The position numbers and the translations under genes were made by a program. This document shows, piece after piece, positions 4,631 to 60,270 of a stretch of 64,000 nt of DNA. Source of the stretch: Bacillota bacterium (GTDB taxonomy: Bacteria; Bacillota; Sulfobacillia; Sulfobacillales; Sulfobacillaceae); NCBI GenBank assembly GCA_021820965.1, contig JAKACZ010000005.1, forward strand, positions 80,400 through 144,399, read 5' to 3'. Position 1 is the first letter of the stretch. Each line of letters begins with the position of its first letter. The notes beneath the pieces are model-generated. The model worked only from the letters and a program-made list of their open reading frames with translations. It had not been told where the DNA came from and made no database searches.

Positions 4631-5727
4631 CTATCTATTACCATAAACATCCGCCTTTAGATAATGCAAACGCGGCCCCCACTGAAGAGGGGTTTCCACA
4701 CCCCACCTAATCCCTTCCAGGTTCTTAGGTACTGCACTGGCCAGTTGCCACAGGGATTCCAAGCAATAGGGGTCGCGGAGCAGCGCCCGACCCGCGATAG
4801 CCACGTCGCCCGTTCCTTCGCCCAATACCTGCTGCGCTTCCGTGGCGCTGCCAATGTGTCCCACCACTCCAGTGGCGATCCGGCCCGGCTACGACCTTCG
4901 CGCGCAGAAGGACCGTGATAGATTGGCTCTTCCACGGGCTTGACTCCTCGTGTACCCTGCCCGACGAGCAGTCAATCAGGTCTACCCCACTCTCCTTTAG
5001 ACTATAGCCCGCAGCCATCGCATTCTCCAGTGTCCATCCACCCTCGGCCCAATCGCTCATGGGCCGCCTCACGCAGAGCAGCCGCTCATCTGGAAGAGCT
5101 CGGCTGGTGGCTCCCGCCACTTTTCGCAGAAACCGAACCCGATTGGTAAATGATCCGCCGTATTCGTCACCCCTGACGTTACAAGCGATGAGAGAAACTG
5201 ACGAATCAAGTACTCGTGGGCCAATCCGGCCGTGGCCGCCCACGCGGCGGATTGAGCGAAATTCTCAATAATCCCCGCGATTTCCGTCTGATCGATCTCT
5301 TGAGGAGTCGGTGTACCAGCGCGGTAGGGAAGCGGCGATGGGGCTGAAATGGGCACCCTCCCTCGTCAACGGCAAGGTATCCTCCACCGCGCCAGGGCAC
5401 GTCCGTGCTCACCTTCCGCCCTGCGTGGGAGCGCTGAAGGCCCACCTTGCTTCCCAATGCAAGCGGTCCTTGCACCAAGTCGTGATATGCGGATTCTTGG
5501 GCGTCGTTCCATAAACCCGAGTCTCCGGGAGTGATCCGACCCTCGGGCGACATGCCGGTAGACTCGAGTATGATCAAACCGACCCCTCCAACGGCGCGAT
5601 GCGCCCAATGCCCCAGGCTTGGCACACCATCCACAGCCAGATACATGCACATCGGAGACATTACCAGCCGGTTTGCCAGTGTTATTCCGCGCTGAGTGAA
5701 TGGTTCAAACAGTGATGTTGGGGACAT
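4631..5727 (-). pseudogene. Old Yellow Enzyme family (NADH:flavin oxidoreductase), frameshifted
   Basis: Pieces of an OYE/YqjM-type FMN oxidoreductase lie in order on the minus strand but in different frames. The start is MSPTSLFEPFTQRGITLANR (5727 onward), followed by MSPMCMY, GHAGRK-like VSTDVPW, EIDQTEIAGIIENFAQSAAW, EYLIRQFLSS, RGDEYGGSFTNRVRFL and finally TEAQQVLGEGTGDVAIAGRA with LLRDPY. At least three frameshifts or small deletions (around 5410, 5230 and 4870) separate them, so no full-length protein can be made. Intact relatives reduce enone or enoate substrates with NAD(P)H. The gene sits between the regulator and the deacetylase of the same module and appears to have decayed while its neighbours stayed intact. 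Confidence 0.85.
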
Positions 5728-5745
5728 TAGCTCCTCCCACCGTGT

Positions 5746-6642
5746 TCAATGTGAATCATCGTAATGAGGATCGGGGGTAGTGGGCATGAGCTCAATCGTC
5801 GGTACGTCCGGCCTCGATTGAACATGCTCCGCCATCGCGCCCGGAGTGGTGACCCATATCCCAGGGACACTTTTGACGTACTCGATCAATTGGCGCACTG
5901 CCGCCAACATTCCGGGACGCCCACTGACGTGGGGGTGCAGTGTTAGTACAAATGATCCGCCTTCGGCTATCACGCCGTCGAGTTCTGCCTTCCATATCTC
6001 GTAGGCGTTGGATGGCGGGGAGATGGTGTGGTTACGAGTGACTTGGGTGTGCCCCCAATACTCCACGTCATCCCAGTACCAATGAATGGGTATCTCGATC
6101 AACCGTTTGTCCTCACCTACCGCCACCCCGTAGGGTGCAATGTCGCCCATTAAACTTGAGTCATAGAGAATGCCGGCGTCGTGTAATACTTCTGCGGTCC
6201 AGTGGTTGAAGTGCCATGAGGGCGTTCGGTACCCCCTCACCCTCCCGTCGGTAAGCTCCTGCAACTCATCCAATGACCGATGGACAATGCCCTCTTCACG
6301 AAGGCGATCCAATCCCCCGACGGGCTCATGCAAGAACCCATGCCCGCCAATCTCGTAGTCAGCGGCATTCAGGTCGCGAACCACGTCGGGCCATTGACGG
6401 GCTATATAGGCGGGAATATAGAAGGTCGAAGGTATCCCCGTGTCCTGGAGCATTTTCACAATAAGCGGAAGGCCGCGGCGCATGCCGTATCGCCGCTGTT
6501 CCACTTCGCTGGCCTCTTTTTTCTCACCCGCTCGCGAGTAAAACGGCGCTTCATCGTCGACGTCCCACGTGATGGAAACAGCCGCTCGATAGTTTTCGGG
6601 CCATGAGGAAAATCCTTGATACGGCCATCGTATAGCTGCCAT
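5746..6642 (-). CDS. Polysaccharide deacetylase family (NodB/PuuE-like) hydrolase
   Basis: The 298-residue protein has the NodB-homology fold. An early aspartate-rich motif AVSITWDVDDE supplies the first metal-binding Asp, GGHGFLHEPVGG supplies the His-x3/4-His type ligands, RGYRTPSWHFN is the Arg/Pro/Trp motif and FVLTLHPHVSG is the C-terminal His motif. Subfamily features (no signal peptide, GFSSWPENYRAAVS N-terminus) resemble cytoplasmic PuuE/allantoinase-type enzymes that hydrolyse C-N bonds in small amides rather than cell-wall chitin. It starts 2 nt after the stop of the upstream SDR gene, so the two are co-translated. The substrate is unknown. An amide or N-acyl compound would fit the neighbouring importer and acylase. 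Confidence 0.85.
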   Translation of the reverse strand: MAAIRWPYQGFSSWPENYRAAVSITWDVDDEAPFYSRAGEKKEASEVEQRRYGMRRGLPLIVKMLQDTGIPSTFYIPAYIARQWPDVVRDLNAADYEIGGHGFLHEPVGGLDRLREEGIVHRSLDELQELTDGRVRGYRTPSWHFNHWTAEVLHDAGILYDSSLMGDIAPYGVAVGEDKRLIEIPIHWYWDDVEYWGHTQVTRNHTISPPSNAYEIWKAELDGVIAEGGSFVLTLHPHVSGRPGMLAAVRQLIEYVKSVPGIWVTTPGAMAEHVQSRPDVPTIELMPTTPDPHYDDSH

Positions 6643-6644
6643 CC

Positions 6645-7451
6645 CTATACCCCCGATCCCCCAAACTCTGCCTTAAGGTGCTCTCTATCCGAGGAATTAA
6701 AAGTCCCTGCGGTGCGGCCGCCATCCACCGTAATGGTCGCGCCGGTAATGAAATCCGCATGTGCAGAGCACAAGAACAAAACCGCCGCCGGTGCGTCAAA
6801 CTCGCCTGACAGGCGCCCCAAGGGAATGCCAGCCGCCATCTTGGCCACATAATCATCAGGAAGAAAACTCTCAGAACTTCCTGGGGAAAATCCCGGCGCG
6901 ACCGCGTTCACCCGGATGTGAAAAGGCGCCAATTCGAGGGCAAACGACTTGGTCAGCATCTCGATGCCGGCCTTGGATGTGGAGTAGTGGCCGTGTCCCA
7001 CCTTGGTCCTCAAAGCAGCGCCCGAGGAGATGTTGACGATGGACCCCTGAATACCATGCTGCACCATGACCCTTGCGACGTCACGGCTCAGGATGAAAGG
7101 AGTGCGCAAATTGACAGCCATCACTCGATCCCAATCGGGAGTCGACATGCTGAGCAGCGGCTGAAGAGGATACAGGCCGGCATTGTTCACTAGCACATCC
7201 GGCGCGCCCCACTCGCTCTTCACCGCCTCGATAATAGCCGTTGACGCCTTCTCGTCGGTTAAGTCCACGGAGAGGTAGTGGGCCGACAGCGCGCCATGCT
7301 CCTGAACTTCCTTAACCAGCGATGTATTCGCCTCGCGGGCAGCCAAGAGAAGCTCCGACCCCTCCCGCGCAAACGCCAGGGCAATTCGGCGACCCACAAT
7401 GCCGGTGGCCCCCGTAATAATCACTTTTTTTGCCTCAAGCGAGATATTCAT
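6645..7451 (-). CDS. SDR-family NAD(P)-dependent oxidoreductase
   Basis: This is a classical short-chain dehydrogenase/reductase. The Rossmann glycine motif TGATGIVGRRIA, the NNAG motif (VLVNNAG), catalytic Ser in NISSGAAL, the Tyr-x3-Lys dyad in HYSTSKAG and the proline after APGFSPG are all present. About 268 residues is normal for the family. I place the start at the ATG at 7451 because AAGGAG lies 8 nt upstream. A GTG two codons earlier would crowd that site. It probably reduces or oxidises a hydroxy/keto group in the same pathway as the adjacent deacetylase, with which it is translationally coupled. The substrate cannot be told from sequence. Confidence 0.9.
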   Translation of the reverse strand: MNISLEAKKVIITGATGIVGRRIALAFAREGSELLLAAREANTSLVKEVQEHGALSAHYLSVDLTDEKASTAIIEAVKSEWGAPDVLVNNAGLYPLQPLLSMSTPDWDRVMAVNLRTPFILSRDVARVMVQHGIQGSIVNISSGAALRTKVGHGHYSTSKAGIEMLTKSFALELAPFHIRVNAVAPGFSPGSSESFLPDDYVAKMAAGIPLGRLSGEFDAPAAVLFLCSAHADFITGATITVDGGRTAGTFNSSDREHLKAEFGGSGV

Positions 7452-7471
7452 TATCACGACTCCTTCTTGTG

Positions 7472-8365
7472 CTAGTTCACACGACGCACCCTAAGACGCG
7501 GATCAAGTTGCTCCTGCACGTAGTCGCCCACCCGGTTAAAGGAGAGTACCACCAAGAATACGGCCAAGCCCGGAAAGAGCATCATCCACCACGCCTGGGT
7601 GATGTAATTCTGCGCTTCGGAGAGCATATTACCCCAACTGGGCGTGGGCGGTTGTATACCCAGACCAAGGAAGGACAACGCAGCTTCATACATAATCATG
7701 GTGCCGACTTCCAAGGTGGCCATCACCACGACCGGCGACAAAATGTTGGGCACAATGTGGCGAAGCATAATGTGAACGTTGGACGCGCCCAGAGACCGCG
7801 CGGCACTGATAAACTCCCCCTCGCGAACTTGGAGGGTTGCACCGTAGGCCACTCGGGTGTAGATGGGCCAGCGCACCGCTCCTAGCACCAAGACGGTGGA
7901 CAGGAGCCCTGGTCCAATCACAGTGATGACCAAAATCGCTAGCAGCAAAAACGGGATAGAGAGTATGATGTCGGCGATGCGCATAAACACCACCGCAACA
8001 ACGCCTCCCAAGTACCCCGCCAGCACCCCAAGAGTCGTTCCGATGAATCCTGCGATCGCTACCGCTGCTAGCGCGACAATGAAAGAGATGCGTGCCCCGA
8101 AGATGAGTCGACTCAAGGTGTCGCGTCCTAAATCGTCTGTACCCAAGACATAAGTGTGCCCCGCCAAATGTGTTCCGGGAGGCTGAAGCCGCGTCAGCAG
8201 GTTTCCTGCAGATGGCGCATAGGGTGCCAGTATGTGCGGAATGGCGGCGCACAACAGGAACAACAACAAGATCACTGCGTAGCCTGTGAGTCTCCAGGGT
8301 AGGTGGCGCCTGCGCCGGGCCGTAATGGTCTCGTCAGCCTCAAGGCGTTCCATCATTTCAGTCAT
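7472..8365 (-). CDS. Peptide/nickel-type ABC transporter permease (DppC-like)
   Basis: This inner-membrane permease belongs to the Dpp/Opp family. It has an N-terminal membrane helix (YAVILLLFLLCAAIPHILA), the family motif PPGTHLAGHTYVLGTDDLGR, several further helices, and the coupling loop EAALSFLGLGIQPPTPSWGN near the C-terminus. The ATG at 8365 is preferred (AGAGGTG, 6 nt spacing). It overlaps the end of the DppB-like gene, as usual for these pairs. No DppD/DppF ATPases follow within the operon, so energy must come from ATPases encoded elsewhere. Substrates of this family are di- and oligopeptides and related small molecules. Confidence 0.93.
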   Translation of the reverse strand: MTEMMERLEADETITARRRRHLPWRLTGYAVILLLFLLCAAIPHILAPYAPSAGNLLTRLQPPGTHLAGHTYVLGTDDLGRDTLSRLIFGARISFIVALAAVAIAGFIGTTLGVLAGYLGGVVAVVFMRIADIILSIPFLLLAILVITVIGPGLLSTVLVLGAVRWPIYTRVAYGATLQVREGEFISAARSLGASNVHIMLRHIVPNILSPVVVMATLEVGTMIMYEAALSFLGLGIQPPTPSWGNMLSEAQNYITQAWWMMLFPGLAVFLVVLSFNRVGDYVQEQLDPRLRVRRVN

Positions 8366-9290
8366 TCCCGGCACCTCTTGTCAGGCGAATCCGCGGATCC
8401 AACATGGAAAAGGCGACATCAGCCAAAAAATTGGCCGTGATGTAAACGGTTGCCCCCAAAATCACGATGGTCTCGACCACGGGAAAGTCGAGAGCCTGAA
8501 CCGATTGCATGGTGAGCTGGCCAAGCCCCGGCCAGGCAAAGATTGTTTCGGTGATCACGGATCCTCCTAGAAGGTTCGCCAGTTGCAGTGTAATGACCGT
8601 CACGATGGGAACCGCAGAGTTGCGCAGCACATGCTTAAACATAATAGTGATGTTAGCGGTCCCCTTCGCTTTGGCGGTTCGCACGTAATCCTTCTGCATT
8701 TCAGCGATAACTGTGGACCGGGTCATGCGGGCGACCGCCGCAATTGAGAGGCCAGCCAGGGTAATCGCTGGCAAAATCACCGAAGCTAAACCTGCGGCAC
8801 CCGAGGAAGGAAACCAGTGGAGCCGCACGCTGAAGAAATAGATAAGCAACAAACCAGACCAAAAAGCTGGCATGCTTTGCCCCGCAACCACTGCCGGCAT
8901 CAGCAGCCGGTCAAAAAACCTGTCGCGATTCGCTGCCATTACCACGCCTACCGGAACGCCCACCAGCACCGTTAGCACAAAAGCCGCCAGGGCCAGAGCA
9001 GCCGTATAGGGAATACGGCTGCCCACGACCAGGCCAGCCGGTTCATTTTGCGCGTACGAAAACCCGAAGTTCCCGTGTAAGAGGTTTCCGAGATAGATTC
9101 CGTACTGCGTCAACAGCGGCTTGTTCAAGCCGAGGTGTATCTCAATCAGCTTAATTTGGGCGACGGTGGCGTTCGGAGGCGCCATCAACAGAGCTGGATT
9201 GCCCGCCAAGTGCAATACGAAGAATACTATCGTTATGACGCCCCACAGCGAAATGATGGCCTGAATGAACCGACCTCCCGCAAACCGCAC
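8358..9290 (-). CDS. Peptide/nickel-type ABC transporter permease (DppB-like)
   Basis: The 310-residue DppB-like permease has an N-terminal helix, the periplasmic segment with LGLNKPLLTQYGIYLGNLLH and GNFGFSY, five further helices and the EAA-type loop (YVRTAKAKGTANITIMFKHV with LRN). The GTG start at 9290 has AAGGGG 7 nt upstream. It overlaps the DppC-like gene by about 8 nt and sits just after the solute-binding protein gene, so binding protein, DppB and DppC form one transcription unit. Acts in the cytoplasmic membrane as a heterodimer with its neighbour. Confidence 0.93.
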   Translation of the reverse strand: MRFAGGRFIQAIISLWGVITIVFFVLHLAGNPALLMAPPNATVAQIKLIEIHLGLNKPLLTQYGIYLGNLLHGNFGFSYAQNEPAGLVVGSRIPYTAALALAAFVLTVLVGVPVGVVMAANRDRFFDRLLMPAVVAGQSMPAFWSGLLLIYFFSVRLHWFPSSGAAGLASVILPAITLAGLSIAAVARMTRSTVIAEMQKDYVRTAKAKGTANITIMFKHVLRNSAVPIVTVITLQLANLLGGSVITETIFAWPGLGQLTMQSVQALDFPVVETIVILGATVYITANFLADVAFSMLDPRIRLTRGAGND

Positions 9291-9318
9291 CCCATCACCC
9301 CTTTGACGTTAAATCGAG

Positions 9319-10857
9319 TTAATTCGCCCAGTGCATCTGGTAGATGAAGAAGTTCTCGAGCGGATTGGGCTTCCAGGTAACGGACTTGTTCACGCCGTAA
9401 ATGTCCACTTCCTGCCAGAGACCCATAGCTGGGGCTTGTCCATGCATGATTGTCAGGGCTTGGTCCAGGTACTTTGTCCGAAGCGCGGTATGCAATGTGC
9501 TTTGGGCTGCCGTTACATCTCGGTTAAAGGCAGCATTGGACCAGCTGGACCAAATGCTCTTGGAGTAGAACATCGGATAGAGGTATGTCGATGCGTCGGG
9601 CCACGTTCCCTGCCATGCACCCATGCGAATGTTGCCCCACTGGTGTTTCGGACTTTGCACCTTCTCCAAATAGGTTGCCTGGGTGGTGCTGTCAATGGAA
9701 ACCCTAATGCCCACCGCCTCTAATTGCTGCTGCACCGCCTGGACTACCGGCTGCGGATAAGCCGGCGAGGTCGCAAACACCAGCGGCTGCCCATGGTAGT
9801 GCGCCTTCTTCAACAGGCTCTTGACTAGGCTTGGATCGTACTTAAAAAATGGGATCTTTTGGTCGTAGCCAAAGCCAATCGGTGTCAGCGTGCTATTGAC
9901 CTGTTTGCCGTACCCGTCCTCGAGCGTTTTAATCATCAGCGGTACATTCAGCGCGTGAACAATGGCCTCGCGCATATAAACCGACCGCGTCACGCCCATA
10001 TCGGTGTTGAAGGCGAGATAGGCGACGCGGTCAACCGGCATCGTTTCCACTTTTAGCCGGCCGGCCGATTTCAACACCGACACTTGGTCCGGCAGAATCG
10101 GATAGGCAATGTCGGCCACCCCTGACTGCAGATCGGAAACCATCGTGGATTCGCTCGGGACTGCGCGAAACTCTACTGACTGGATGGCGGGCTTGCCTCG
10201 CCAGTAGTGGTTGTTGGCCACCATGGTCACTGTCGATCCCTGAACCCATTGCTTCAGTTTATACGGCCCGGACCCGACCGGATGCAGGTTAAAGTAGGCA
10301 TTGCCATGGGCAAGAATGTACGCCTTAGGGACGATGCTTAGCGTCGTTAATTCGCCAAGCAGTACCGGATCGGGGGATGTCGTGGTGATAATGACGTTAT
10401 CACCCTGCACTCGAACGCGTTTCACTTGCGAGAAGTTTGCGCTTTGTGGGCTGTTAAAAGCGGGGTTTAGAATCCTCTGCAAGCTATATTGGACATCCAC
10501 AGGCGTCAGGGGTTGCCCATTGGAGAACTTAATCCCCTTTCGGATGGTGAACTCCCATTCCGTCGGCGACAATGATTTCCACTTTGTCGCCACGTCCGGT
10601 TGAATTTTTTGCGTGTAGGGATTGTCGGTCAGCAATTGGTCAAAGAGATTGCGATAGACGAAGTAGCTTTCTGAGTTATACTGCAATCCCGGATCCAAAT
10701 TGGACGGAGCCGCGTCTAAGTCAACAACGAGTTGCTTTGGATTCGCGACTGCCGCTGGCTTCGCCGAGTGAGCCGACGCGAAGCCGCATCCCGCGAGTAA
10801 GCTGCTGAGGCTCATCAACGCAATGACACCAGCCGATTTGCGCCACAATCGGGCCAT
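9319..10857 (-). CDS. Extracellular solute-binding lipoprotein, family 5 (peptide/oligopeptide type)
   Basis: The 512-residue lipoprotein carries the peptide-binding family 5 fold. The signal peptide ends in lipobox LLAGC (Cys about residue 24). Family motifs include LDAAPSNLDPGLQY, EWEFTIRKGIKFSNGQPLTP with DVQYSLQRI, and GSGPYKLKQW. It captures the substrate outside the membrane for the DppB/C pair encoded downstream. The start has a good AAGGAAGG site. The upstream region has TTGCCC-18 nt-TATATT on this strand, followed 13 nt later by the palindrome at 10897-10910, a position where bound repressor would block transcription. It is divergent from the acylase gene and probably co-regulated with it. 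Confidence 0.93.
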   Translation of the reverse strand: MARLWRKSAGVIALMSLSSLLAGCGFASAHSAKPAAVANPKQLVVDLDAAPSNLDPGLQYNSESYFVYRNLFDQLLTDNPYTQKIQPDVATKWKSLSPTEWEFTIRKGIKFSNGQPLTPVDVQYSLQRILNPAFNSPQSANFSQVKRVRVQGDNVIITTTSPDPVLLGELTTLSIVPKAYILAHGNAYFNLHPVGSGPYKLKQWVQGSTVTMVANNHYWRGKPAIQSVEFRAVPSESTMVSDLQSGVADIAYPILPDQVSVLKSAGRLKVETMPVDRVAYLAFNTDMGVTRSVYMREAIVHALNVPLMIKTLEDGYGKQVNSTLTPIGFGYDQKIPFFKYDPSLVKSLLKKAHYHGQPLVFATSPAYPQPVVQAVQQQLEAVGIRVSIDSTTQATYLEKVQSPKHQWGNIRMGAWQGTWPDASTYLYPMFYSKSIWSSWSNAAFNRDVTAAQSTLHTALRTKYLDQALTIMHGQAPAMGLWQEVDIYGVNKSVTWKPNPLENFFIYQMHWAN

Positions 10858-10896
10858 CGGAATACCTTCCTTTCATACTATCTGCGACTCATCAAC

Positions 10897-10910
10897 ATTG
10901 GTAATACCAC
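10897..10910. promoter_or_regulatory. Candidate GntR-FCD operator between importer and acylase
   Basis: The sequence ATTGGTAATACCAC contains the palindrome TGGTA-A-TACCA. It fits the FadR/FCD operator pattern TNGTNNNACNA exactly. The same 14 bases occur inverted at 15132-15145. It lies just downstream of a plausible minus-strand promoter for the binding-protein gene and about 110 nt before the acylase start. The inferred ligand is the GntR protein encoded at 3881-4612. Confidence 0.7.
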
Positions 10911-11016
10911 CTACCTATCGCCAAATATAGCACCTGATGCTATTATGGGGCAAGCAGAAAATTATCTAATTTTCAGTGCGCGGGTGGCCGATTCATCCCC
11001 ACGAGGAGGATACCTC

Positions 11017-13284
11017 ATGCCAATTGATGTTCAAGACATTTTCGCTCGTGCCAAGCCGTCGTATGACGGTCACTACCGTTTGTCCGGGCTGGAAAGCCAG
11101 GTGGATATTTACCGAGACGCTAGCGCTGCTCCCCATATCTGGGCCCGGAGCGCAAAAGACGGATTTTTCGCCCAGGGATGGGTCCACGCGCAGGACCGCT
11201 TTTGGCAAATGGAAGCTGACCGCCTGAAAGCATACGGTCGCTGGGCGGAGGTGGTGGGCCCTCAGGGCCTGGACCAGGATATCTTTTGGCGGCGGCTCCG
11301 CTTGAAGTTCAACGCTAAGAACGATTTTTCGGCAGCTCATAGTGATGCAAAAATGATGCTGACCGCCTATGCCGCTGGCGTGAACGCCTTCCTACACACG
11401 AACCCTTGTATTCCGGAGTGTGAGCTTTTGGCCCATCGGCCTGAACCATGGGATCCATGGGACTCCATCGCGGTATTTAAATCACGACACATAAACATGA
11501 ACCGCTGGGAACATAAAATTTGGCGCATGAACATTGCCCGCCAGTTTGGCCCAACCGCGCTTGAACTCTTGTTCCCGCCCACGCCGCAGTACCGTTTTCT
11601 GGTTGAGTCCGACCCGCCACCATTCAATATGGACGCGCTCTTTACCCCCACCTTTCTGACCGAAGAGGATGAAGGGGGCAGCAATAACTGGGTTGTGTCG
11701 GGCTCCCGAACCGAATCTGGCTTTCCCATTCTAGCGGGAGACCCGCACCGTGCCGTCGATGTTCCCAACGTCTACTATCAAAACCACATGGTCTGCGACC
11801 TTTTTGACGTGGCGGGATTCTCCTTTGCGGGAGTTCCCGGATTTCCTCACTTTGCCCACAATGCGCGAGTTGCTTGGAGCATTACGCACGCTGCTGCCGA
11901 TACCCAGGACATCTATCTCGAAGTCTTAAGCCCCGACCACCGCTCCTACCGACGGCGGGGAGACTGGGTGCCTGTGGACCGAGAGGAAGACACTATCCGG
12001 GTTCGCGGCGGCGACACGGTTTCTGTGGAGCTTCTCGTGGCAGGTGAGGGTCCAATCATCCAAATCGAAGGCACGCGTGCATTGGCCTTGAAGGCGGTCG
12101 CCTTGCAGGAGCCCAATAAAACCTGGGACGCGCTCTGGGATATGTTGGGGGCGCGCAATATTGATGATTTAGACACGGCCATGGAAAACTGGGTGGAACC
12201 TGTGAACAATCTCTTGTACGCCGACCAAGACGGAAACATTGGATACCGCATGCGCGGCAAACTGCCCATACGGCCGTTGGCCAACGCTTGGGTTCCCGTT
12301 GACGCGGAGTCGGGTCGCTTTAGCTGGCGCGGTTTTGTCCCCTTTCACCAGATGGCGCGGATAATCAACCCCCCGGACGGATTCCTGGTCACCGCCAACA
12401 ATCAGGTCGTCGACGATCGGTACCCCCATTACGTGGCGCTGGACTTTGCCGCACCGCACCGCCGAAACCGGATTGCCGAACTTATCACCGCCCGCTCCCG
12501 GTGGACATCCGACGCGATGAGGAGCATCCACGCCGACATTCGATCCTTAAGCGCGCTAAATCTGGTGTCCTATATGCTGGAGGCAATACCCGAGACTCAG
12601 GCGGGACGCGCGCTGCAGCAGCGGCTAGCGGGATGGGATGGGTCGCTCTCGCCGGAGAGTCCCCTCCCGACGCTTTACAGTTGGATTCGTCGCCATGTGG
12701 TCGAAATGTTCATGGCGTCCGCGACCAGCCTCGAGTTTCTGCGCCAGTCGGCCGGAACTCCGCCGCTCACATGGCAGGCGGGCAGGCTTAACGGCCACCT
12801 TTCTCTATTACTTCAAGACAGTACGTCACCGGTGGCGCGAGCTATAACGAGACAGAATCTCTGGGCACGGGCGTTGGACGCTGCGGGTCGAGAGTTCCCC
12901 GATCCCGAAGCCATACCCCTGTGGCAATCTGTCCACATCCTTCGACCTACGCATCCGCTGGCGAGCACCATTCCTGAGGCGGCGGCATTGCTGAACCCCC
13001 GTCCCATTTCCATAGGCGGGGATGGAGACACGGTCCAGGCCGCCTCCTTTGGCGGTTCCGGGTTCCAAATTACCGGAACTTCTGTTGCCCGTTACGTATT
13101 TGACCTCGCAGAGTGGGATCGCTCGGGATGGATTGTGCCGCTTGGGGTAAGTGGGGTAGGCGGCAGTGCGCACTTTGAAGATCAAAAGACGTCCTGGGCC
13201 CACCATGAGCTGCAGCCGATGCACTTCAGTGCCTCAGCCGTGACCGTCGCCGCGGTTCATCACACCGTTCTGGAGGTTGGGTAA
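11017..13284 (+). CDS. Penicillin acylase family N-terminal-nucleophile hydrolase
   Basis: This roughly 755-residue enzyme belongs to the penicillin G acylase/acyl-homoserine-lactone acylase family, which hydrolyses amides after self-cleavage. The alpha part has GFFAQGWVHAQDRFWQMEAD, typical of the family. The cleavage junction is EDEGGSNNWVVSG, which makes Ser222 the nucleophile of the beta chain. Downstream motifs include LAGDPHRAV, NVYYQNHM, GFPHFAHNARVAWSIT and VTANNQVVDD. The ATG at 11017 is chosen for its GAGGAGGA site. No signal peptide is visible, so the enzyme appears cytoplasmic, unlike many secreted family members. It is divergent from a peptide-type importer and shares its candidate operator, which fits cleavage of an imported N-acyl compound. 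Confidence 0.93.
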   Translation: MPIDVQDIFARAKPSYDGHYRLSGLESQVDIYRDASAAPHIWARSAKDGFFAQGWVHAQDRFWQMEADRLKAYGRWAEVVGPQGLDQDIFWRRLRLKFNAKNDFSAAHSDAKMMLTAYAAGVNAFLHTNPCIPECELLAHRPEPWDPWDSIAVFKSRHINMNRWEHKIWRMNIARQFGPTALELLFPPTPQYRFLVESDPPPFNMDALFTPTFLTEEDEGGSNNWVVSGSRTESGFPILAGDPHRAVDVPNVYYQNHMVCDLFDVAGFSFAGVPGFPHFAHNARVAWSITHAAADTQDIYLEVLSPDHRSYRRRGDWVPVDREEDTIRVRGGDTVSVELLVAGEGPIIQIEGTRALALKAVALQEPNKTWDALWDMLGARNIDDLDTAMENWVEPVNNLLYADQDGNIGYRMRGKLPIRPLANAWVPVDAESGRFSWRGFVPFHQMARIINPPDGFLVTANNQVVDDRYPHYVALDFAAPHRRNRIAELITARSRWTSDAMRSIHADIRSLSALNLVSYMLEAIPETQAGRALQQRLAGWDGSLSPESPLPTLYSWIRRHVVEMFMASATSLEFLRQSAGTPPLTWQAGRLNGHLSLLLQDSTSPVARAITRQNLWARALDAAGREFPDPEAIPLWQSVHILRPTHPLASTIPEAAALLNPRPISIGGDGDTVQAASFGGSGFQITGTSVARYVFDLAEWDRSGWIVPLGVSGVGGSAHFEDQKTSWAHHELQPMHFSASAVTVAAVHHTVLEVG

Positions 13285-13291
13285 TGGAGCA

Positions 13292-14005
13292 TTAGCTTGT
13301 TGCGAAGGCGATAGCAGCCCGAGCCAGTATGTCTGTGGAATGAAGGATCGGCTTTGGCGCGGAGGTGGTCAACAAAAAGCGCCCAACTACGGGAAGCTCA
13401 GTACACGCCAGCAAAATCGCATCCACGTCGCGTGCCCAGGCACGCCCTAAAATGTCGACCAGCACGTCGGAACGACTGGGCGTGCTGACGCTTCCAGGCT
13501 GGTCCATCATCGACGTCTTTACCGCCCAGATGAGGTCCATAGTATCTTGCTGCGATTTATCATCGGGGTACACAACGGCCACGTCCCGGCTGGCCAGGGT
13601 AGCGTCGTAGAGATGATGCGTGCGGGTTGGGGTGGTGCCCAGAACCCCAAGTCGCTGAATCCCGACTTGATGCACGGTGGCGGCCACTTCTTCGACAATG
13701 GAGAGCATCGGAACGGAAAGTGAAGCGCGGATTTCTGGCAGATAGTAGCTGGTGGTGGACGAAGGCATCACCACAAAATCGGCACCGCACTCTACAAGAC
13801 GTCCGGCCAGCGCGCGGAGAGCAGGAAGAGGAGATGGTCCCTGCCCTGACAAGTGGTTGACGCGGCTTGGGACCTCAGGATCTGAGTCGAGCACCACGGG
13901 GAGATGGTCCTCGTCTCCAGAGGCCGGCGTCAACTCGCATAGGCGCAGGTAAAAGTAGGCGCCCGCCAACGGTCCGAGTCCTCCCAAAATCCCGACAGTT
14001 TTCAT
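13292..14005 (-). CDS. Aspartate/glutamate racemase family protein, atypical active site
   Basis: The 237-residue protein shows the Asp/Glu racemase fold: MKTVGILGGLGPLAGAYFY at the N-terminus, a central FVVMPSSTTSYYL block and a C-terminal ILLACTELPVV block. Active racemases use two cysteines. The second (ACTEL) is present, but the first, normally in a PCNTAH-type motif, is replaced by PSSTTS. The protein may therefore be a one-cysteine variant with different chemistry, an isomerase-like relative such as the maleate isomerase or hydantoin racemase group, or inactive. The ATG has a GGAGAG ribosome site. It is convergent with the acylase (7 nt apart) and downstream of the D-cysteine desulfhydrase homologue on the same strand. 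Confidence 0.85.
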   Translation of the reverse strand: MKTVGILGGLGPLAGAYFYLRLCELTPASGDEDHLPVVLDSDPEVPSRVNHLSGQGPSPLPALRALAGRLVECGADFVVMPSSTTSYYLPEIRASLSVPMLSIVEEVAATVHQVGIQRLGVLGTTPTRTHHLYDATLASRDVAVVYPDDKSQQDTMDLIWAVKTSMMDQPGSVSTPSRSDVLVDILGRAWARDVDAILLACTELPVVGRFLLTTSAPKPILHSTDILARAAIAFATS

Positions 14006-15760: not shown

Positions 15761-16573
15761 GGAGTCCTCTCCTTCCGGGATGCGGTGCATAATTACCTTA
15801 TAGTGTAGCACAGAGTGTGGCTGTCCGATTTTTTGCAAAAGTGTTATCACTTCTGCACATCTTTGGTTTGGTCATCAGCAAGTAGCGTGTTGTCAAGGAA
15901 TCTCCCAAGGATGGTTTATTGTACTACGACCTTAGCCGTAGGGTCATGCCTAATTGCCCTGCACCCCTCTCTTAAACTCTCTGTATCAACGTAATGCAGG
16001 CCAATTCGCCCCACACCAACCACTGCATGGGTCGCACTGATTCATGCCTGAGGAGAGCGCTTGTTGCTACTACAGCAGAATACCTCGACATTTTAAGGAA
16101 CCACCCAATGAAGGACTTGCGCTGTAAGAACAACGTTGCGACGGCATTTTCCCGGGATCATGGTTTAGACCTAGCAGTTAGTGAATGGAAAACGTCTGGA
16201 ACCCCGGTAGAATCACGGTCTTGAGCATTTCGCTCGTATTATACAACTCAGGGTCGTTTTTGGCGGCATCGGATGGTCCAGTGAAGATTTGACGAAAGCC
16301 CCAAACGACCGTTTCACGCGGGATTCGGGAATTCCAGCAATAGGTGGCGGGAACTCAAACATAACTAGATAGCATGATGACCAGCCCCGGTTAATCACAA
16401 CGTTCGCGGACTACGCTGAATGGCGGTGGTAACATCTACCATGTCGGTTACCGCATACGATCTGGCCCATCCCCAGTTTTATGGTAATGGTAGTCATAAT
16501 ATTCGAGCAAAGGAATTAGGGGTCCCGATGTCGAAGAGAGGAGTCAATACCACGCTCGTCGAGGAGGACCCCC
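15761..16573. other. About 810 bp with no supported gene
   Basis: Only short open frames without ribosome sites or familiar sequence occur. A weak hairpin (CTACG...CGTAG) lies near 15925-15945. The right part (from about 16400) is probably the left flank of the transposase element, including an RBS (GAGGAGGA) at 16561-16568. Confidence 0.45.
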
Positions 16574-56389: not shown

Positions 56390-56542
56390 TCAACCAGTGT
56401 GTGTGCCACTTGAAACGGGCGGGTCGCTTATGTCAGCTACCATAACTTGGGCTCGTTGGATATTTCGATGCGACTGCACAGCATTTGTCGTAATGGCAAA
56501 TGCTGAGGTGATCAATATGAGGATCGCTACGTACTTTTTCAT
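56390..56542 (-). CDS. Small exported peptide, candidate pheromone of the XRE-TPR regulator
   Basis: The 50-codon gene starts 22 nt downstream of the regulator stop on the same strand. The product begins MKKYVAILILITSAFAITTN, a positively charged start plus hydrophobic core, followed by a plausible cleavage region (NAVQS) and a short polar C-terminus ending SDPPVSSGTHTG. This layout (TPR regulator, then a small gene for a Sec-exported pro-peptide) is that of Rap-Phr, PlcR-PapR and NprR-NprX pairs, where the C-terminal 5-10 residues are released, re-imported and bound by the TPR domain. GAAGGGAG lies 11 nt upstream of the ATG, with GGTG nearer. The identification is inference. The mature peptide is unknown. 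Confidence 0.6.
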   Translation of the reverse strand: MKKYVAILILITSAFAITTNAVQSHRNIQRAQVMVADISDPPVSSGTHTG

Positions 56543-56564
56543 TAATTCACCGACTCCCTTCGGC

Positions 56565-57815
56565 TCAATCGATGGCAGGGAACAGTGCGGCAAGGGCCTT
56601 CAGCGACTCCGTGGCGCCGCGTGTATTATTATCGTAGAGCATGTTTCGAGCTATCCTAATTCTTATTGCAACCGCTAATTGGCGATCATTCAGTTTAGTC
56701 AGAGCCAGTTCTAGATCTGTTTCTAACGCCTCTCGGGACTCTATCGAAGTCGCCATAGCCAATTCTAAAACACGCGCTGAAAACCATGAACTCACAAGTG
56801 AACTTCCCAGCAACTCCTTGGCTCTACCTATGAGTTGCCGCGCATTGTCTTCGAGGCCAATGGTGCAAGCCCACTCAGCTTGGGTCGCCAAGAATTCACC
56901 TTGTGTTACAGGATCTTCGCACGTACGATTCGCCAGTGCCGAAGCAACGCTAGTGGCACTCTCCCAAAATTTCTGCCGAACCATGCACTTTAACATATTG
57001 TTAAGTATCTTACATATCAGCGTCGGATTGGCGTCAACACTGGTGTAAAGCGAGTAAGCCTTCTCATAGTGCTTTATTGCGTAACCCAGCCGGTCTCGAC
57101 GGTATTCTAGATTACCCATGCCCATGTGTGCATTCGCCAGTCTTATGGGGTTGGTAACGCGCCGAATAGCATGTTGCCATTGGGTCTCAGCGCGGTCGTA
57201 TGCTCCAATTTGCCAGAAAGCAAGCCCCAAATTGCATACGACGCCCTCCCAAACGTCTGAGTGTGTAGTATTGCCTATCGCCTCGCGGAGAGGACCTATG
57301 GCAGCTTGAGGATTTCCTTCTTGTAGATAGCACCTTCCCAAAAGCCCCAGTATTTCAACACGCTGTAGTCCATGATAGGAAGTCTCCCTGGCAAGATGCT
57401 CCGCTATCACGATTGCACGCCGCGTATGACCTGTTTCTCCTAGCACCTTGGCTACTAGGAATTGTGTGTGGCGTTGCTGCTTGGACGATAGGTAGTCCGC
57501 TCGCGCGGCGTGTCGCAGCAAACGCTGAAGTCGAAGCCGTGGTACTTTCCCCGTAAGTATAATGCGGTCAACCAGTTCTGCCCGTTGCCTCATGTTACAC
57601 GAAGATTCAAGACAAGCCACATCCAAGGCTCCGCGCGGTAATCCGAGTCCCTCTGTTATCGCGTCCAATACCGAGACGGATGGGATCATGCGTCCGCGTT
57701 CTATGGCGTGGATCGTAGAAGGTGCTACCACTCGTGAAACCGCCGTGAGTTTTATGCGTTGCTCTTGTCGGGCTGCTCTGAGCGCCCGGCCAATTGGCGT
57801 GCCTTGCTTCTCCAT
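56565..57815 (-). CDS. XRE-HTH/TPR transcriptional regulator (RRNPP-like)
   Basis: The 416-residue protein begins with an XRE-type helix-turn-helix (GRALRAARQEQRIKLTAVSR, VVAPSTIHAIERGRMIPSVS; about residues 8-65) followed by about 340 residues of helical repeats with TPR character (YLQEGNPQAAIGPLREAIGN, AFWQIGAYDRAETQWQHAIR, MGNLEYRRDRLGYAIKHYEK). This is the architecture of PlcR, NprR and Rgg-type peptide-sensing regulators. It is divergent from the radical SAM peptide operon and followed by a small exported-peptide gene. I take ATG 57815 since the HTH starts there. The ribosome site is weak, and a longer N-terminus up to 57956 cannot be excluded. It probably controls the divergent promoter. 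Confidence 0.85.
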   Translation of the reverse strand: MEKQGTPIGRALRAARQEQRIKLTAVSRVVAPSTIHAIERGRMIPSVSVLDAITEGLGLPRGALDVACLESSCNMRQRAELVDRIILTGKVPRLRLQRLLRHAARADYLSSKQQRHTQFLVAKVLGETGHTRRAIVIAEHLARETSYHGLQRVEILGLLGRCYLQEGNPQAAIGPLREAIGNTTHSDVWEGVVCNLGLAFWQIGAYDRAETQWQHAIRRVTNPIRLANAHMGMGNLEYRRDRLGYAIKHYEKAYSLYTSVDANPTLICKILNNMLKCMVRQKFWESATSVASALANRTCEDPVTQGEFLATQAEWACTIGLEDNARQLIGRAKELLGSSLVSSWFSARVLELAMATSIESREALETDLELALTKLNDRQLAVAIRIRIARNMLYDNNTRGATESLKALAALFPAID

Positions 57816-57947
57816 GATGGAAAATTGTCCACAGCCACGGGGAAATCCTCCTAAACGGGGCCCCAAAATTTCTACAATTGAGATCCGCCTGAATCTATGG
57901 ATAGAAATGTTGAGACCGAACACGCGCAGGAAGAAGTCACTACATGT

Positions 57948-57962
57948 TGAACTCATTGTTCA
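57948..57962. promoter_or_regulatory. Inverted repeat in the divergent regulator/RiPP promoter
   Basis: TGAAC-TCATT-GTTCA is a perfect 5-bp inverted repeat with 5-nt centre, 52 nt before the peptide start at 58015. It overlaps a TTGAAC that could serve as -35, with no good -10 behind it, as expected for an activator-dependent promoter. Candidate binding site for the XRE-TPR protein (inference). Confidence 0.45.
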
Positions 57963-58014
57963 GAGAAGGCTGACTTCTCACGCAACCTGGGCCGATTCGG
58001 AAGGGGGTGTTGTC

Positions 58015-58113
58015 GTGACATATTTCAAGCCGATAATCGAACACTTACCGAACTATTGCGCCGCTGAACCGCAATGCGCGTGTGGGTTTGTGTCCGGAAG
58101 CGGCGGTGGGTGA
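58015..58113 (+). CDS. Candidate RiPP precursor peptide (32 residues, Cys/Gly-rich)
   Basis: A GTG at 58015, 7 nt after GGAAGGGGG, opens a 32-codon frame. The N-terminal half (TYFKPIIEHLPNY) looks like a short leader, and the C-terminal half is CAAEPQCACGFVSGSGGG, with three cysteines (C-x5-C-x-C) and a glycine-rich end. TGA is followed at once by in-frame TAG. It precedes the radical SAM/SPASM gene by about 100 nt on the same strand. The layout (tiny Cys-rich peptide, SPASM maturase, PqqD-like protein) is that of radical-SAM RiPPs such as sactipeptides and ranthipeptides, where the maturase installs thioether or C-C links on the core. The precursor role is inference from position and composition. 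Confidence 0.65.
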   Translation: MTYFKPIIEHLPNYCAAEPQCACGFVSGSGGG

Positions 58114-58216
58114 TAGCTGTCTCCTCGCTGCTCTCGTTGAGAGCTTAAAGACGTTGGACCCCTGGGGACCGGGTTGCCACTCGTGTCCCCGGGATCAAGT
58201 TCAGAAGGAGGTAGGT

Positions 58217-59590
58217 ATGGTAAATCGGCTCACGTTTCCAGATGAAGTAGCAGTCTATTGGGAAAACGGCGAGTACATTGTCCACAATGTCAAGGTTAGT
58301 ACTTGGGGACTATTCGACGGGGAAGAATTGTTCATATACCAAACCTTGCGGACTTACGAAACTGTTGGCGAAGCAACCAAACACCTGAACTATGACTCCG
58401 AGACGATAAGCCGGGTAATCGTGCGGGCCCTCTTCAATCGACTTGCGTTTACTACGGCCGAAGCCGCACAAGACTCGATCGAACGTGCGAGGACGGCTTT
58501 AAACCATCAGCCGGACGTTCCGGTTCCAAACGCGGCATACCTGGTCATGACCCTTCGCTGCAACCTAAGCTGCACGTACTGCTACGCGGAGTCAGGTCCA
58601 CACGTGACTATTCAAGACGATTTGACCACTGCGCAGTACAAATCGGTATTGCAGCAGGTTAAACAATTGGGTGTTCGAACGGTTATATTCACTGGAGGAG
58701 AACCCTTCATACGTCCTGACATTGGTGAATTGATTGCCTTCGCCAAATCCTTGGGGCTACGCACTAATGCAATCTCGAACGGACGCGCGATTACCAAGGC
58801 TCTAGTAGTCGGCCAACTGCTCGGCAACTTGGACAAAATCACCATAAGCATCGATTCGATGGAGCCTGAAATTCACGATAGAAACCGGGGACACTTGTCC
58901 CATCATTTCGCGATGCGGGCTTTACAATATTTTTTGGACACACCGATAGTGGTTAACGTGAATTCGACGTTGACCAATATCACCCAAACGGACGATTACC
59001 TTGTCTTAAACGATTTCTTACACGACCGAGGGGTAAAGCACAAAACGTTATTTCTAACCGAAATCGGGCGTGGTGACGTAGATGTCCAGGGAATATCCTC
59101 GTCTCATCGCACAGAGATACAGCGAGGGTTGTTAAAAAACGAGACAGACTTGGTAAACAGAAGTCCCGTGGGCACCGATGCGACCTTGTTACCTCTAGCA
59201 ATACGGAATCATTGCGGAGCCGGCGCAGCTGAGTTCTCAGTAGACCCCAAAGGCAATGTATTTCCATGTAAACTCCTCCACGAATCGGAATTTCTGGCCG
59301 GCAATCTCAAGGATTCCACTTTACAGGAGATCTGGGAATTTTCATCAGCGTTGCGACAACTGCGGCGCACCACCACTGACACGTTACCAAATTGCCTCCC
59401 CTGCTCATTTCGCTTTATTTGTGGGGGAAGTTGCCGCGCCGCTGCTTATGGCAGGACGCGAGACATTCATGCAACATTATTGGAGGAATGCCCTTCTTTA
59501 CGCCGACAACTCCGCCACAGCATTTGGGCTTCGGCCAAAACGGCCCTCGCTCCCAGTCCAATGCCGGTCTCGAGAGAAGATTTGTGCTGA
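58217..59590 (+). CDS. Radical SAM/SPASM peptide maturase
   Basis: The 457-residue protein has the radical SAM core with the SAM-binding cluster motif CNLSCTYC (Cys115, 119, 122), the GGEP-type motif FTGGEPFIRPDIGEL and ISIDSMEPEIHDRNRG. A C-terminal SPASM domain for auxiliary Fe-S clusters has Cys near 333 (NHCGAGAAEFSVDPKGNVFP with C after), then CLPCSFRFICGGSC (about 393-406) and a final EEC. The N-terminal ~85 residues form a small wing-like region (DEVAVYWENGEYIVHNVKV). ATG 58217 is set by AAGGAGGTAGGT. It probably modifies the peptide encoded just upstream, with the PqqD-like and ferredoxin-like neighbours presenting substrate and supplying electrons. Ending EDLC then TGA. Confidence 0.92.
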   Translation: MVNRLTFPDEVAVYWENGEYIVHNVKVSTWGLFDGEELFIYQTLRTYETVGEATKHLNYDSETISRVIVRALFNRLAFTTAEAAQDSIERARTALNHQPDVPVPNAAYLVMTLRCNLSCTYCYAESGPHVTIQDDLTTAQYKSVLQQVKQLGVRTVIFTGGEPFIRPDIGELIAFAKSLGLRTNAISNGRAITKALVVGQLLGNLDKITISIDSMEPEIHDRNRGHLSHHFAMRALQYFLDTPIVVNVNSTLTNITQTDDYLVLNDFLHDRGVKHKTLFLTEIGRGDVDVQGISSSHRTEIQRGLLKNETDLVNRSPVGTDATLLPLAIRNHCGAGAAEFSVDPKGNVFPCKLLHESEFLAGNLKDSTLQEIWEFSSALRQLRRTTTDTLPNCLPCSFRFICGGSCRAAAYGRTRDIHATLLEECPSLRRQLRHSIWASAKTALAPSPMPVSREDLC

Positions 59591-59618
59591 TGGGCCAATG
59601 CGGAGGTGAGGGCTCAGA

Positions 59619-59906
59619 ATGAGACTGCACGATACTGTAATATGGCACGAAGATCAGGGCACCATTCTTATTCTATTCGCGAATGAACCGATGCGGTTAA
59701 AGGGGAGTGCAATCGATATTTGGAAATCACTTGTGTCAAACTCCATAACCGACGTGTCTGATATCGTAAACGAGTTGGTGCAGCGATACCCGACCGAAGA
59801 CGCTGATCGCATCACATTAGACGTCAAAGCTTTTCTATCGGAGCTAGCATCCCTTGGAATATTGATTGATGAAGGGGGAACCATTGGTGGCCCGAGTAGT
59901 GTGTGA
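59619..59906 (+). CDS. PqqD-like RiPP recognition element protein
   Basis: The 95-residue protein matches the PqqD fold: a beta wing (TVIWHEDQGTILILFANEPM), then MRLKGSAIDIWKSLVSN and IVNELVQRYPTEDADRITLD with a last helix VKAFLSELASLGILI. PqqD proteins bind the leader of a precursor peptide and deliver it to the radical SAM enzyme. GCGGAGGTGAGG precedes the ATG. It starts 28 nt after the maturase stop and overlaps the ferredoxin-like gene by 20 nt. A free-standing PqqD argues strongly that the maturase acts on a leader peptide. Confidence 0.82.
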   Translation: MRLHDTVIWHEDQGTILILFANEPMRLKGSAIDIWKSLVSNSITDVSDIVNELVQRYPTEDADRITLDVKAFLSELASLGILIDEGGTIGGPSSV

Positions 59907-60123
59907 TCCTTGCCGCCCAGCAAACTGTGATAGGTGTACCGGTGTGTGTACAACCAACAGCATCAACGTCTTGACATCCCAAGCCGTTGTCAACCCAGCG
60001 TCATGCATTGACTGTGGAGAATGTGAGTTCGCGTGTCCAAAGGGTGCAATATTTCCAGAAGAAGCAGTCCCATTAGCATGGCATCGTTTTAAAGCTATCA
60101 ATAGCGCGTACTTTGGGTTGTGA
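59887..60123 (+). CDS. Ferredoxin-like 4Fe-4S protein
   Basis: The 78-residue protein has two cysteine groups: an atypical CDPCRPANCDRCTGVC and a canonical CIDCGECEFACPKGAIFP. Two cubane clusters are likely, though the first spacing (C-x2-C-x4-C-x2-C-x3-C) departs from ordinary ferredoxins. GTG 59887 is preferred (AAGGGGG, 8 nt spacing). It overlaps the PqqD-like gene, so it is part of the same operon and could pass electrons to the radical SAM clusters. An extra iron-sulfur role in peptide modification is possible. Confidence 0.82.
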   Translation: MARVVCDPCRPANCDRCTGVCTTNSINVLTSQAVVNPASCIDCGECEFACPKGAIFPEEAVPLAWHRFKAINSAYFGL

Positions 60124-60175: not shown

Positions 60176-60270
60176 GGGAGTTGTTGGTCGACTGGTGTCA
60201 CCCGCAGACTTCAAATCTGCCGGCGGGCAGCACTGTCCGCGATGGGTTCGATTCCCATCAACTCCCGCCA
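60176..60270 (+). tRNA. selC: Selenocysteine tRNA, anticodon TCA
   Basis: The 95-nt gene starts GGGAGTTG, which pairs over 8 bp with CAACTCCC before discriminator G and an encoded CCA. The anticodon arm is GCAGA-CTTCAAA-TCTGC with TCA at 60211-60213. There is a long variable arm (CGGCGGGCAGCACTGTCCGC) and a T arm ATGGG-TTCGATT-CCCAT. The 8-bp acceptor stem plus 5-bp T stem, long extra arm and UCA anticodon are the diagnostic features of bacterial tRNA-Sec. It lies 52 nt after the ferredoxin-like gene and before an IS remnant. No selA, selB or selD is in the window. Confidence 0.95.

Follow-up and report, generated by a model that had tools for sequence, protein, structure and literature searches.

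The 64,000 nucleotides of Bacillota DNA considered here (contig JAKACZ010000005.1, positions 80,400 to 144,399, family Sulfobacillaceae; below, the window) carry at 56390-60123 a locus of six genes in two divergent units, with start codons 200 nt apart. In the reading that we favor, at a probability of about 0.68, an RRNPP-like regulator would switch on a divergent, predicted sactipeptide operon, distantly related to StsABC, once the regulator's own pheromone accumulates. The regulator forms a pair with a small peptide and a conserved box lies between it and the operon, so that cells probably switch the product on as the signal peptide builds up. Such quorum-type control of a ribosomally synthesized and post-translationally modified peptide (RiPP) made by a radical S-adenosylmethionine (SAM) enzyme had been proposed in a first-pass annotation of this DNA. 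The proposal is supported by the co-conservation of regulator and peptide at all ten loci of the genus and by the box in the divergent gap.

All six genes of that annotation were confirmed, and to these the analysis added the shared DPP motif, the promoter box and the StsA relationship. The minus-strand unit consists of the regulator gene (56565-57815, 416 aa) and, starting 22 nt past its stop codon, the candidate pheromone precursor gene (56390-56542, 50 aa), whose product has a hydrophobic N-terminal stretch and a C-terminal part reading ...ISDPPVSSGTHTG. On the plus strand, the StsA-like precursor gene (58015-58113; 32 codons from a GTG start, with YFKP as leader motif and CACGFVSGSGGG as core) is followed by three tightly spaced or overlapping genes. 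These encode a radical SAM/SPASM peptide maturase (58217-59590, 457 aa), a stand-alone PqqD-like RiPP recognition element (RRE; 59619-59906, 95 aa), beginning 28 nt beyond the maturase stop codon, and a small Fe-S ferredoxin-like protein (about 59887-60123), overlapping the PqqD-like gene by 20 nt.

Mechanistically, the 50-residue peptide would be secreted, processed into a short signal around SDPPVSSG, taken up again, probably via an oligopeptide permease, and bound by the tetratricopeptide repeat (TPR) domain of the regulator. The loaded regulator would act at the conserved TTTCTAY-N25-RTAGAAA box, to which it would likely bind, and would thereby control its own expression and drive the operon. 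Judging by homology, the PqqD-like protein would hold the 32-residue precursor by its YxxP leader and present it to the radical SAM enzyme. The latter would form bonds between Cys sulfurs and alpha carbons of the CACGxxSGSG core, and the co-encoded ferredoxin would supply the electrons.

Control of radical-SAM RiPPs by pheromone receptors is already known in streptococci; what the window is predicted to add is the lineage, the signal family, the box and the StsA-type branch. It would be a second lineage in which the pairing of quorum sensing with radical-SAM peptides becomes testable. The streptococcal loci for streptide, streptosactin and tryglysin likewise have a cytoplasmic helix-turn-helix (HTH) regulator and a small exported peptide beside a radical-SAM RiPP operon, and differ from the window in their hydrophobic SHP signal (here [DN]PP[VI]), their box and their bacterial class. 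In streptococci, the Rgg/SHP pairs control these operons (PMC13361665, excerpt).

Regulator and promoter box

The regulator combines an N-terminal HTH domain of the XRE type with a C-terminal TPR domain, as RRNPP proteins do (Pfam HTH_31, 30.4 bits; TPR_2, 37.1 bits). Its structure model (pLDDT, the model's own confidence score, 80) is all-helical, with an HTH and TPR helices. Among solved folds, Rap, NprR and AimR score high, and the matches to Rap and NprR, which stand among those to other TPR proteins, are compatible with the suggestion of a PlcR/NprR-like regulator. With its HTH and long TPR array, the model presumably resembles NprR or AimR rather than Rgg. Against so specific an assignment, LGN ties within 1 Z, LGN and MalT fit the model as well as Rap, and designed TPR proteins come out on top in Foldseek. 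The start codon was placed at ATG 57815. An alternative, longer frame reaching 57956 was rejected, since the relative P0042 begins at the same Met and since the longer starts lie within or bordering the promoter box. Relatives of the regulator gave 24 match rows, which fall into 19 distinct loci in seven of 154 genomes of the class, including three of the eight of the genus. A search of a large protein collection scored only the 7,999 candidates with most words in common and missed paralogues of the own genome; it is therefore uninformative on the rarity of the family.

Regulator genes of this family are often preceded by an inverted repeat with the consensus TTTCTAY-N25-28-RTAGAAA. The word ATAGAAA, which forms an arm of this repeat, occurs in six of eight regulator promoters examined and in at most four in shuffles (8 of 12 promoters entered this comparison; L116, L119, L123 and L124 were left out). 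Across 14 scanned stretches (the window and L134-L146), the box stands at the regulator in seven, once with two mismatches. Its distance to the regulator start is 53 nt in the window and L135, 52 nt in L134 and L136, 55 nt in L137 and L142, and 54 nt in L139, where the values for L134, L139 and L142 use an inner ATG aligned with the other regulators. In 229,874 bases, four perfect and six one-mismatch sites were counted, where five block shuffles gave 0.0 and 0.2, respectively, an enrichment that is not independent, because the pattern was derived from the same loci. A search of five genomes with a slightly wider pattern gave 14 sites, eight of them at regulator loci, against three for the reversed pattern. 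The constancy of the spacing, the boxes at protease genes described below and the reversed-pattern control provide more independent support for the box than the shuffle counts.

Besides the shared origin of pattern and counts, several observations weigh against the role proposed for the box. It is missing from two of the eight promoters examined (L120 and L133) and from the regulator in 7 of the 14 scanned stretches, and 6 of the 14 sites in the genome search lie away from regulators. The longest frames would give spacings of 31, 33 and 37 nt for L134, L139 and L142. Moreover, no box was found upstream of the streptide-like precursor of L139 or in L145, two loci discussed below.

In two genomes, a second box is located 95 nt before a Peptidase_A4 gene (L135, 119 bits; L136, 126 bits), for L136 counted from an internal ATG that has a good ribosome site; a further point of doubt is that the longest frame of the latter would give an overlap. 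Both genes are likely members of the regulon. These acid-protease genes (L135, 6885-7688; L136, 7299-8096; both on the minus strand) have signal-like starts and adjoin the pheromone gene. The arrangement is reminiscent of NprR/NprX and PlcR/PapR of the Bacillus cereus group, in which an HTH-TPR receptor gene is likewise followed by a propeptide gene, and the boxes before exported protease genes in two relatives add to the likeness. The sequence relationship found here stops at the domains, however, and the signal and box of the Bacillus systems differ from those of the window. In another contig of the own genome (C53, L146), a perfect box at 16043-16084, 5 kb off a broken regulator, lies upstream of a short reading frame whose start is signal-like and whose end reads ASTWTTTHNEGF.

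The candidate operator of the window, TTTCTAC-N25-ATAGAAA (57869-57907, no strand assigned), is its only site without mismatches, and lies 107 nt upstream of the precursor GTG. It may well serve both directions of the divergent gap. Alternatively, the regulator and its DPP peptide would govern their own promoter only, and the RiPP operon would be a neighbor brought by mobile elements and controlled otherwise. The G+C content of the operon (0.50, against 0.56 for window positions 1-56000) is in line with such an origin, as are the group II intron parts, reverse transcriptase and phage-type integrase close to the locus. In addition, box and precursor are 107 nt apart, compared to 95 nt at the protease genes, and the 5 kb around seven of the ten genus regulator loci contain no radical SAM gene. 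We nevertheless consider this alternative unlikely, as the sole perfect box of the window sits in a gap with starts 200 nt apart, and as a radical SAM gene does occur within 5 kb at the other three of the ten loci, compared with an expectation of 0.26-0.39 loci (P 0.002-0.006; 12, 15 and 11 radical SAM genes in G000, G004 and G006, respectively), a distance that was chosen after seeing the data and with some contigs being short.

Precursor and maturase

The precursor reads YFKPIIEHLPNYCAAEPQCACGFVSGSGGG. Its family, which had gone unrecognised in the first-pass annotation, became apparent from comparison with distant StsA-type systems (L103, from plasmid pSCAT, and L149-L151), and the reading as an unknown family was rejected. 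A profile of the C-terminal halves of StsA-type precursors ranks it first among the 1,095 open reading frames (ORFs) of the window (E 0.017, next 0.05; frame scored at its full 183 codons), and the pSCAT peptide alone as query finds it at E 0.0035. Both the [W/Y/L]xxP motif and the CxC core are present, as YFKP and CACG; the four comparators have WTAP, WTSP, WSSP and WIKP with CACG or CSCG. Three of these comparators share the near-identical end ...WTAPEATKEGFDAAMLCACGLWSGSGQAEN, while the remaining one has WIKPDITSAEPQMLPPACSCGCGSGGGGGAGS. Since the precursor is recognisable as StsA-like, the CACG part of what had been called an unusual three-Cys core is ordinary, and the extra upstream Cys is the one unusual feature.

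Some scores speak against the assignment: a single Streptomyces precursor as query places the window peptide third (E 2.4), and NF045559 gives it 14.7 bits at a cut-off of 75 (E 0.03). NF045558 (cut-off 42) is not among the listed matches of the window precursor; the pSCAT precursor falls below that cut-off too (24 of 42 bits), and a Streptomyces precursor exceeds that of NF045559 at 133 bits. The 32-residue peptide, with its YxxP leader and CACGxxSGSG core, is best described as a putative StsA-related sactipeptide precursor, with a score that is weak alone and a position between the right genes. A 68-codon form starting at an upstream ATG was disfavored relative to the 32-codon form, because GTG 58015 is served by a GAAGGGGG ribosome site and because pSCAT encodes a precursor of 36 aa.

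The StsABC sactipeptide system of Streptomyces sparsogenes was reportedly described by Precord et al. in 2023 (reference 56 of PMC12710340), and its enzyme StsB, going by the NCBI family name, is taken to form sactionine links. The window resembles it in gene order (precursor, radical SAM/SPASM enzyme, stand-alone PqqD-like RRE), in maturase homology from end to end, and in the [WY]xxP leader motif, the CxCG core and the Gly/Ser-rich tail of the precursor. It differs in the low maturase score, in having a ferredoxin gene in place of a nearby ATP-binding cassette (ABC) exporter, in the extra upstream Cys, in its RRNPP-like regulator and in belonging to the Sulfobacillus family instead of the Actinomycetota. 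StsA-type systems would reach past the actinomycetes, here in a compact form that brings its own ferredoxin gene and is handy for in vitro work.

For the maturase (Pfam Radical_SAM, 72 bits; SPASM, 36.5 bits), the best NCBI family is StsB (NF045574), which matches residues 4-440 with 202.3 bits and leads the next family by 65 bits, but the cut-off of 625 is missed by far. P0002, its nearest relative at 73% identity, P0010 and P0011 likewise score best against StsB and stay below the cut-off, at 223-261 bits for the three, so that the enzyme represents a sister branch rather than StsB itself; the next group of relatives, P0003-P0011, is at 30-38%. Members above the cut-off are encoded by plasmid pSCAT of Streptantibioticus cattleyicolor (738 bits; taken from the best 20 listed of 465 matching plasmid records) and by 3 of 199 Streptomyces genomes (872-887 bits). 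The best 80 of 234 confirmed matches in IMG/VR (79 loci) show 22-39% identity over their best segments, and one scan of GTDB contigs gave a single match at 22%. Locus L023 (G460), a stretch of 4.2 kb, contains a maturase, a PqqD and an ABC-2 permease gene, but no recognisable precursor.

In the structure model of the maturase (pLDDT 75), residues 11-73 form three strands and three helices, which we take to be the RRE arrangement, and this N-terminal part looks like a built-in RRE. If the model is right, the system would recognise its precursor through two modules, one built into the maturase and one stand-alone. The stand-alone PqqD-like protein (PqqD, 40.3 bits, cut-off 23.4) corresponds to StsC, as it is a PF05402 protein of ~100 aa encoded beside precursor and maturase; it is 27% identical to its counterpart in Streptomyces (L149), 30% to that of pSCAT (L103, aligned piece) and 24% to that of L023. 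StsC requires the WxxP motif of StsA (PMC12710340, excerpt). The ferredoxin-like protein (Fer4, 33.5 bits) is the likely electron donor of the maturase.

Whether the maturase is a sactisynthase at all can be questioned, as it could make another crosslink, or a cofactor from a tiny peptide, like PqqE or MftC. The missed StsB cut-off would fit, and PqqE-, mycofactocin- and NirJ2-type families also score (106-133 bits). This is quite improbable, however, given the end-to-end lead of StsB, a CxCG core as in StsA-type precursors, and the sactisynthase entries 5why and 5wgg (CteB) as best fold matches.

The [DN]PP[VI] peptides

At 11 of the 19 loci, the regulator gene is adjoined by a small ORF whose product has a hydrophobic N-terminal stretch and, towards its C-terminus, a [DN]PP[VI] motif, with export judged from hydrophobicity alone. 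It is present at all ten loci of the genus (four in the own genome, G000, and three each in G004 and G006), including all eight with a full-length regulator, and at one of nine loci elsewhere in the class; at one of these nine (contig C4 of G018), the contig ends on the side where the peptide is expected. The small exported frame picked out in the first-pass annotation thus rises above chance, with ten motif-sharing counterparts beside regulator relatives, and the conservation check proposed there turned out favorably for it. The gap between the regulator stop and the peptide ORF is usually 4-24 nt, and 304 nt in L111; in L124 the peptide ORF extends into the regulator gene if its longer start is used, and on contig C86 it is found on the opposite side of a broken regulator. 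Of 355 small ORFs with such N-termini in 303,822 bases, 11 have the motif and these are exactly the regulator-adjacent set, in sequence (the window, the regulator stretches and 19 other loci) that is itself regulator-centred.

In the large collection, a profile of the 11 peptides matches 12 proteins at E up to 0.04, all with the motif, six of which (P0047, P0048, P0050, P0053, P0054 and P0055) differ from the peptides already collected. P0046 and P0055 have different N-termini and nearly identical last 21 residues, and in L118 the motif is present twice, in tandem. We read the regulators and their [DN]PP[VI] peptides as an RRNPP-type pheromone family, paralogous in the genus. In contrast, no such ORF was found beside the full-length regulators L114, L116 and L120 outside the genus, although L114 has the box. 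Conservation focused on a short C-terminal motif, once in tandem, is the pattern of pheromone propeptides, and tandem propeptides are known among the Rap-Phr pheromones (PMC11343458, excerpt).

That pattern also makes it very unlikely that the peptide is an effector, a secreted toxin or a RiPP substrate, located by chance beside the regulator, and no signal. The DPPV gene of L145 does lie directly upstream of a same-strand radical SAM gene, where a substrate would be expected, but at each of the other ten loci the peptide gene comes after the regulator, and eight of these loci are free of radical SAM genes within 5 kb (the G018 locus, L141, being unscanned for such genes).

Two more regulator loci adjoin radical-SAM peptide genes. 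At L139 (contig C185 of G006), the maturase scores best against the KxxxW streptide maturases (128 of 500 bits) and is accompanied by a 43-codon frame with AKGDGW, presumably a streptide core, and by a gene of the major facilitator superfamily. This locus (6116-6247, 4767-6071 and 571-1863, all on the minus strand), with a same-family regulator and an NPPI peptide, parallels the Rgg/SHP-streptide locus of streptococci. At L145 (contig C86 of the own genome), TIGR04463 is closest to the maturase (203 bits of 525), alongside a CoaBC-like flavoprotein, a 27-codon frame ending NCVC and the broken regulator. It is a candidate RiPP locus, possibly with C-terminal Cys decarboxylation (6575-6658, 6630-7238 and 7235-8578, minus strand), and the NCVC frame has a strong ribosome site. 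Another candidate small-molecule cluster occurs at L137 (contig C101 of G006; 9562-13637, plus strand), where a regulator whose peptide carries NPPV in tandem lies divergently to genes of the AMP-binding-like (slightly below cut-off), ATP-grasp and MATE types.

On a wider reading, for which the chances seem to us evenly balanced, bacteria of the Sulfobacillus family share a private [DN]PP[VI] pheromone language, with HTH-TPR receptors and one box, that switches at least three unrelated radical-SAM peptide chemistries (sactipeptide, streptide-like and C-terminal-Cys type) as well as secreted acid proteases. If this is true, the coupling between quorum sensing and radical-SAM RiPPs arose or was kept well outside streptococci. 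A short peptide of the SDPPV type would in addition be a testable inducer for silent peptide clusters, here for the predicted sactipeptide. To our knowledge, the Sulfobacillus family had so far lacked a described RRNPP-type signal family with its receptors and DNA box. No description of this signal family was among the literature matches listed, no bacterial paper was found with the peptide motif words, judged by title and abstract, and no literature joining Sulfobacillus with RRNPP was found in a search that covered neither subscription papers nor supplements. In the one paper found on the subject, quorum sensing in these acidophiles is covered as acyl-homoserine lactone (AHL), autoinducer-3 (AI-3) and diffusible signal factor (DSF) systems (PMC9040811, excerpt). 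RRNPP_Detector listed 196 candidate RRNPP-regulated biosynthetic gene clusters, most commonly for RiPPs (PMC10075063, excerpt), and the window likewise has an RRNPP pair adjoining such a cluster. In the main text of that paper, supplements aside, the Sulfobacillus family is not among the 11 families in the gene cluster section, and the words Sulfobacillus and radical SAM are absent (PMC10075063, excerpt).

Surroundings of the locus

The locus is flanked by group II intron parts and a tRNA-Sec gene. Downstream, up to the end of the window, which is also the contig end, three larger ORFs follow: one with a reverse transcriptase domain, one with a phage-integrase domain and one without a domain. 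None of the three has an exporter domain, in agreement with the earlier remark that no transporter is visible nearby, and this counts against the favored reading. A Sulfobacillus acidophilus plasmid matches the DNA of this reverse transcriptase at 78.5%. In addition, P0040, a radical SAM protein assigned by NCBI to Sulfobacillus thermotolerans, is 100% identical to a protein of G027, a genome grouped in the same family and a different genus, and both matches place the host (G000, 4.6 Mb) in the Sulfobacillus family.

Between the precursor and maturase genes, a hairpin is predicted at 58111-58220 (plus strand; -47.6 kcal/mol, z -3.26), with equal stability in none of 200 shuffles; it is a possible stabiliser or attenuator. 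The tRNA-Sec gene (60176-60270, plus strand) lies directly past the operon. Reading the terminal UGA of the precursor as selenocysteine (Sec), giving a C-terminal Sec, can practically be dismissed: UGA-UAG at 58111-58116, the stable hairpin after it and the tRNA-Sec gene 2 kb downstream invite the idea, but that neighbor is not special, because tRNA-Sec exceeds the family cut-off in all ten genomes of the family searched (with three matches in the own genome), StsA relatives stop at about the same point, and no selenocysteine insertion sequence (SECIS) family reaches the gathering threshold.

Elsewhere in the window (7472-10857, minus strand), two permease genes and a gene for a family 5 solute-binding protein form an oligopeptide-permease-like set that could import peptides.

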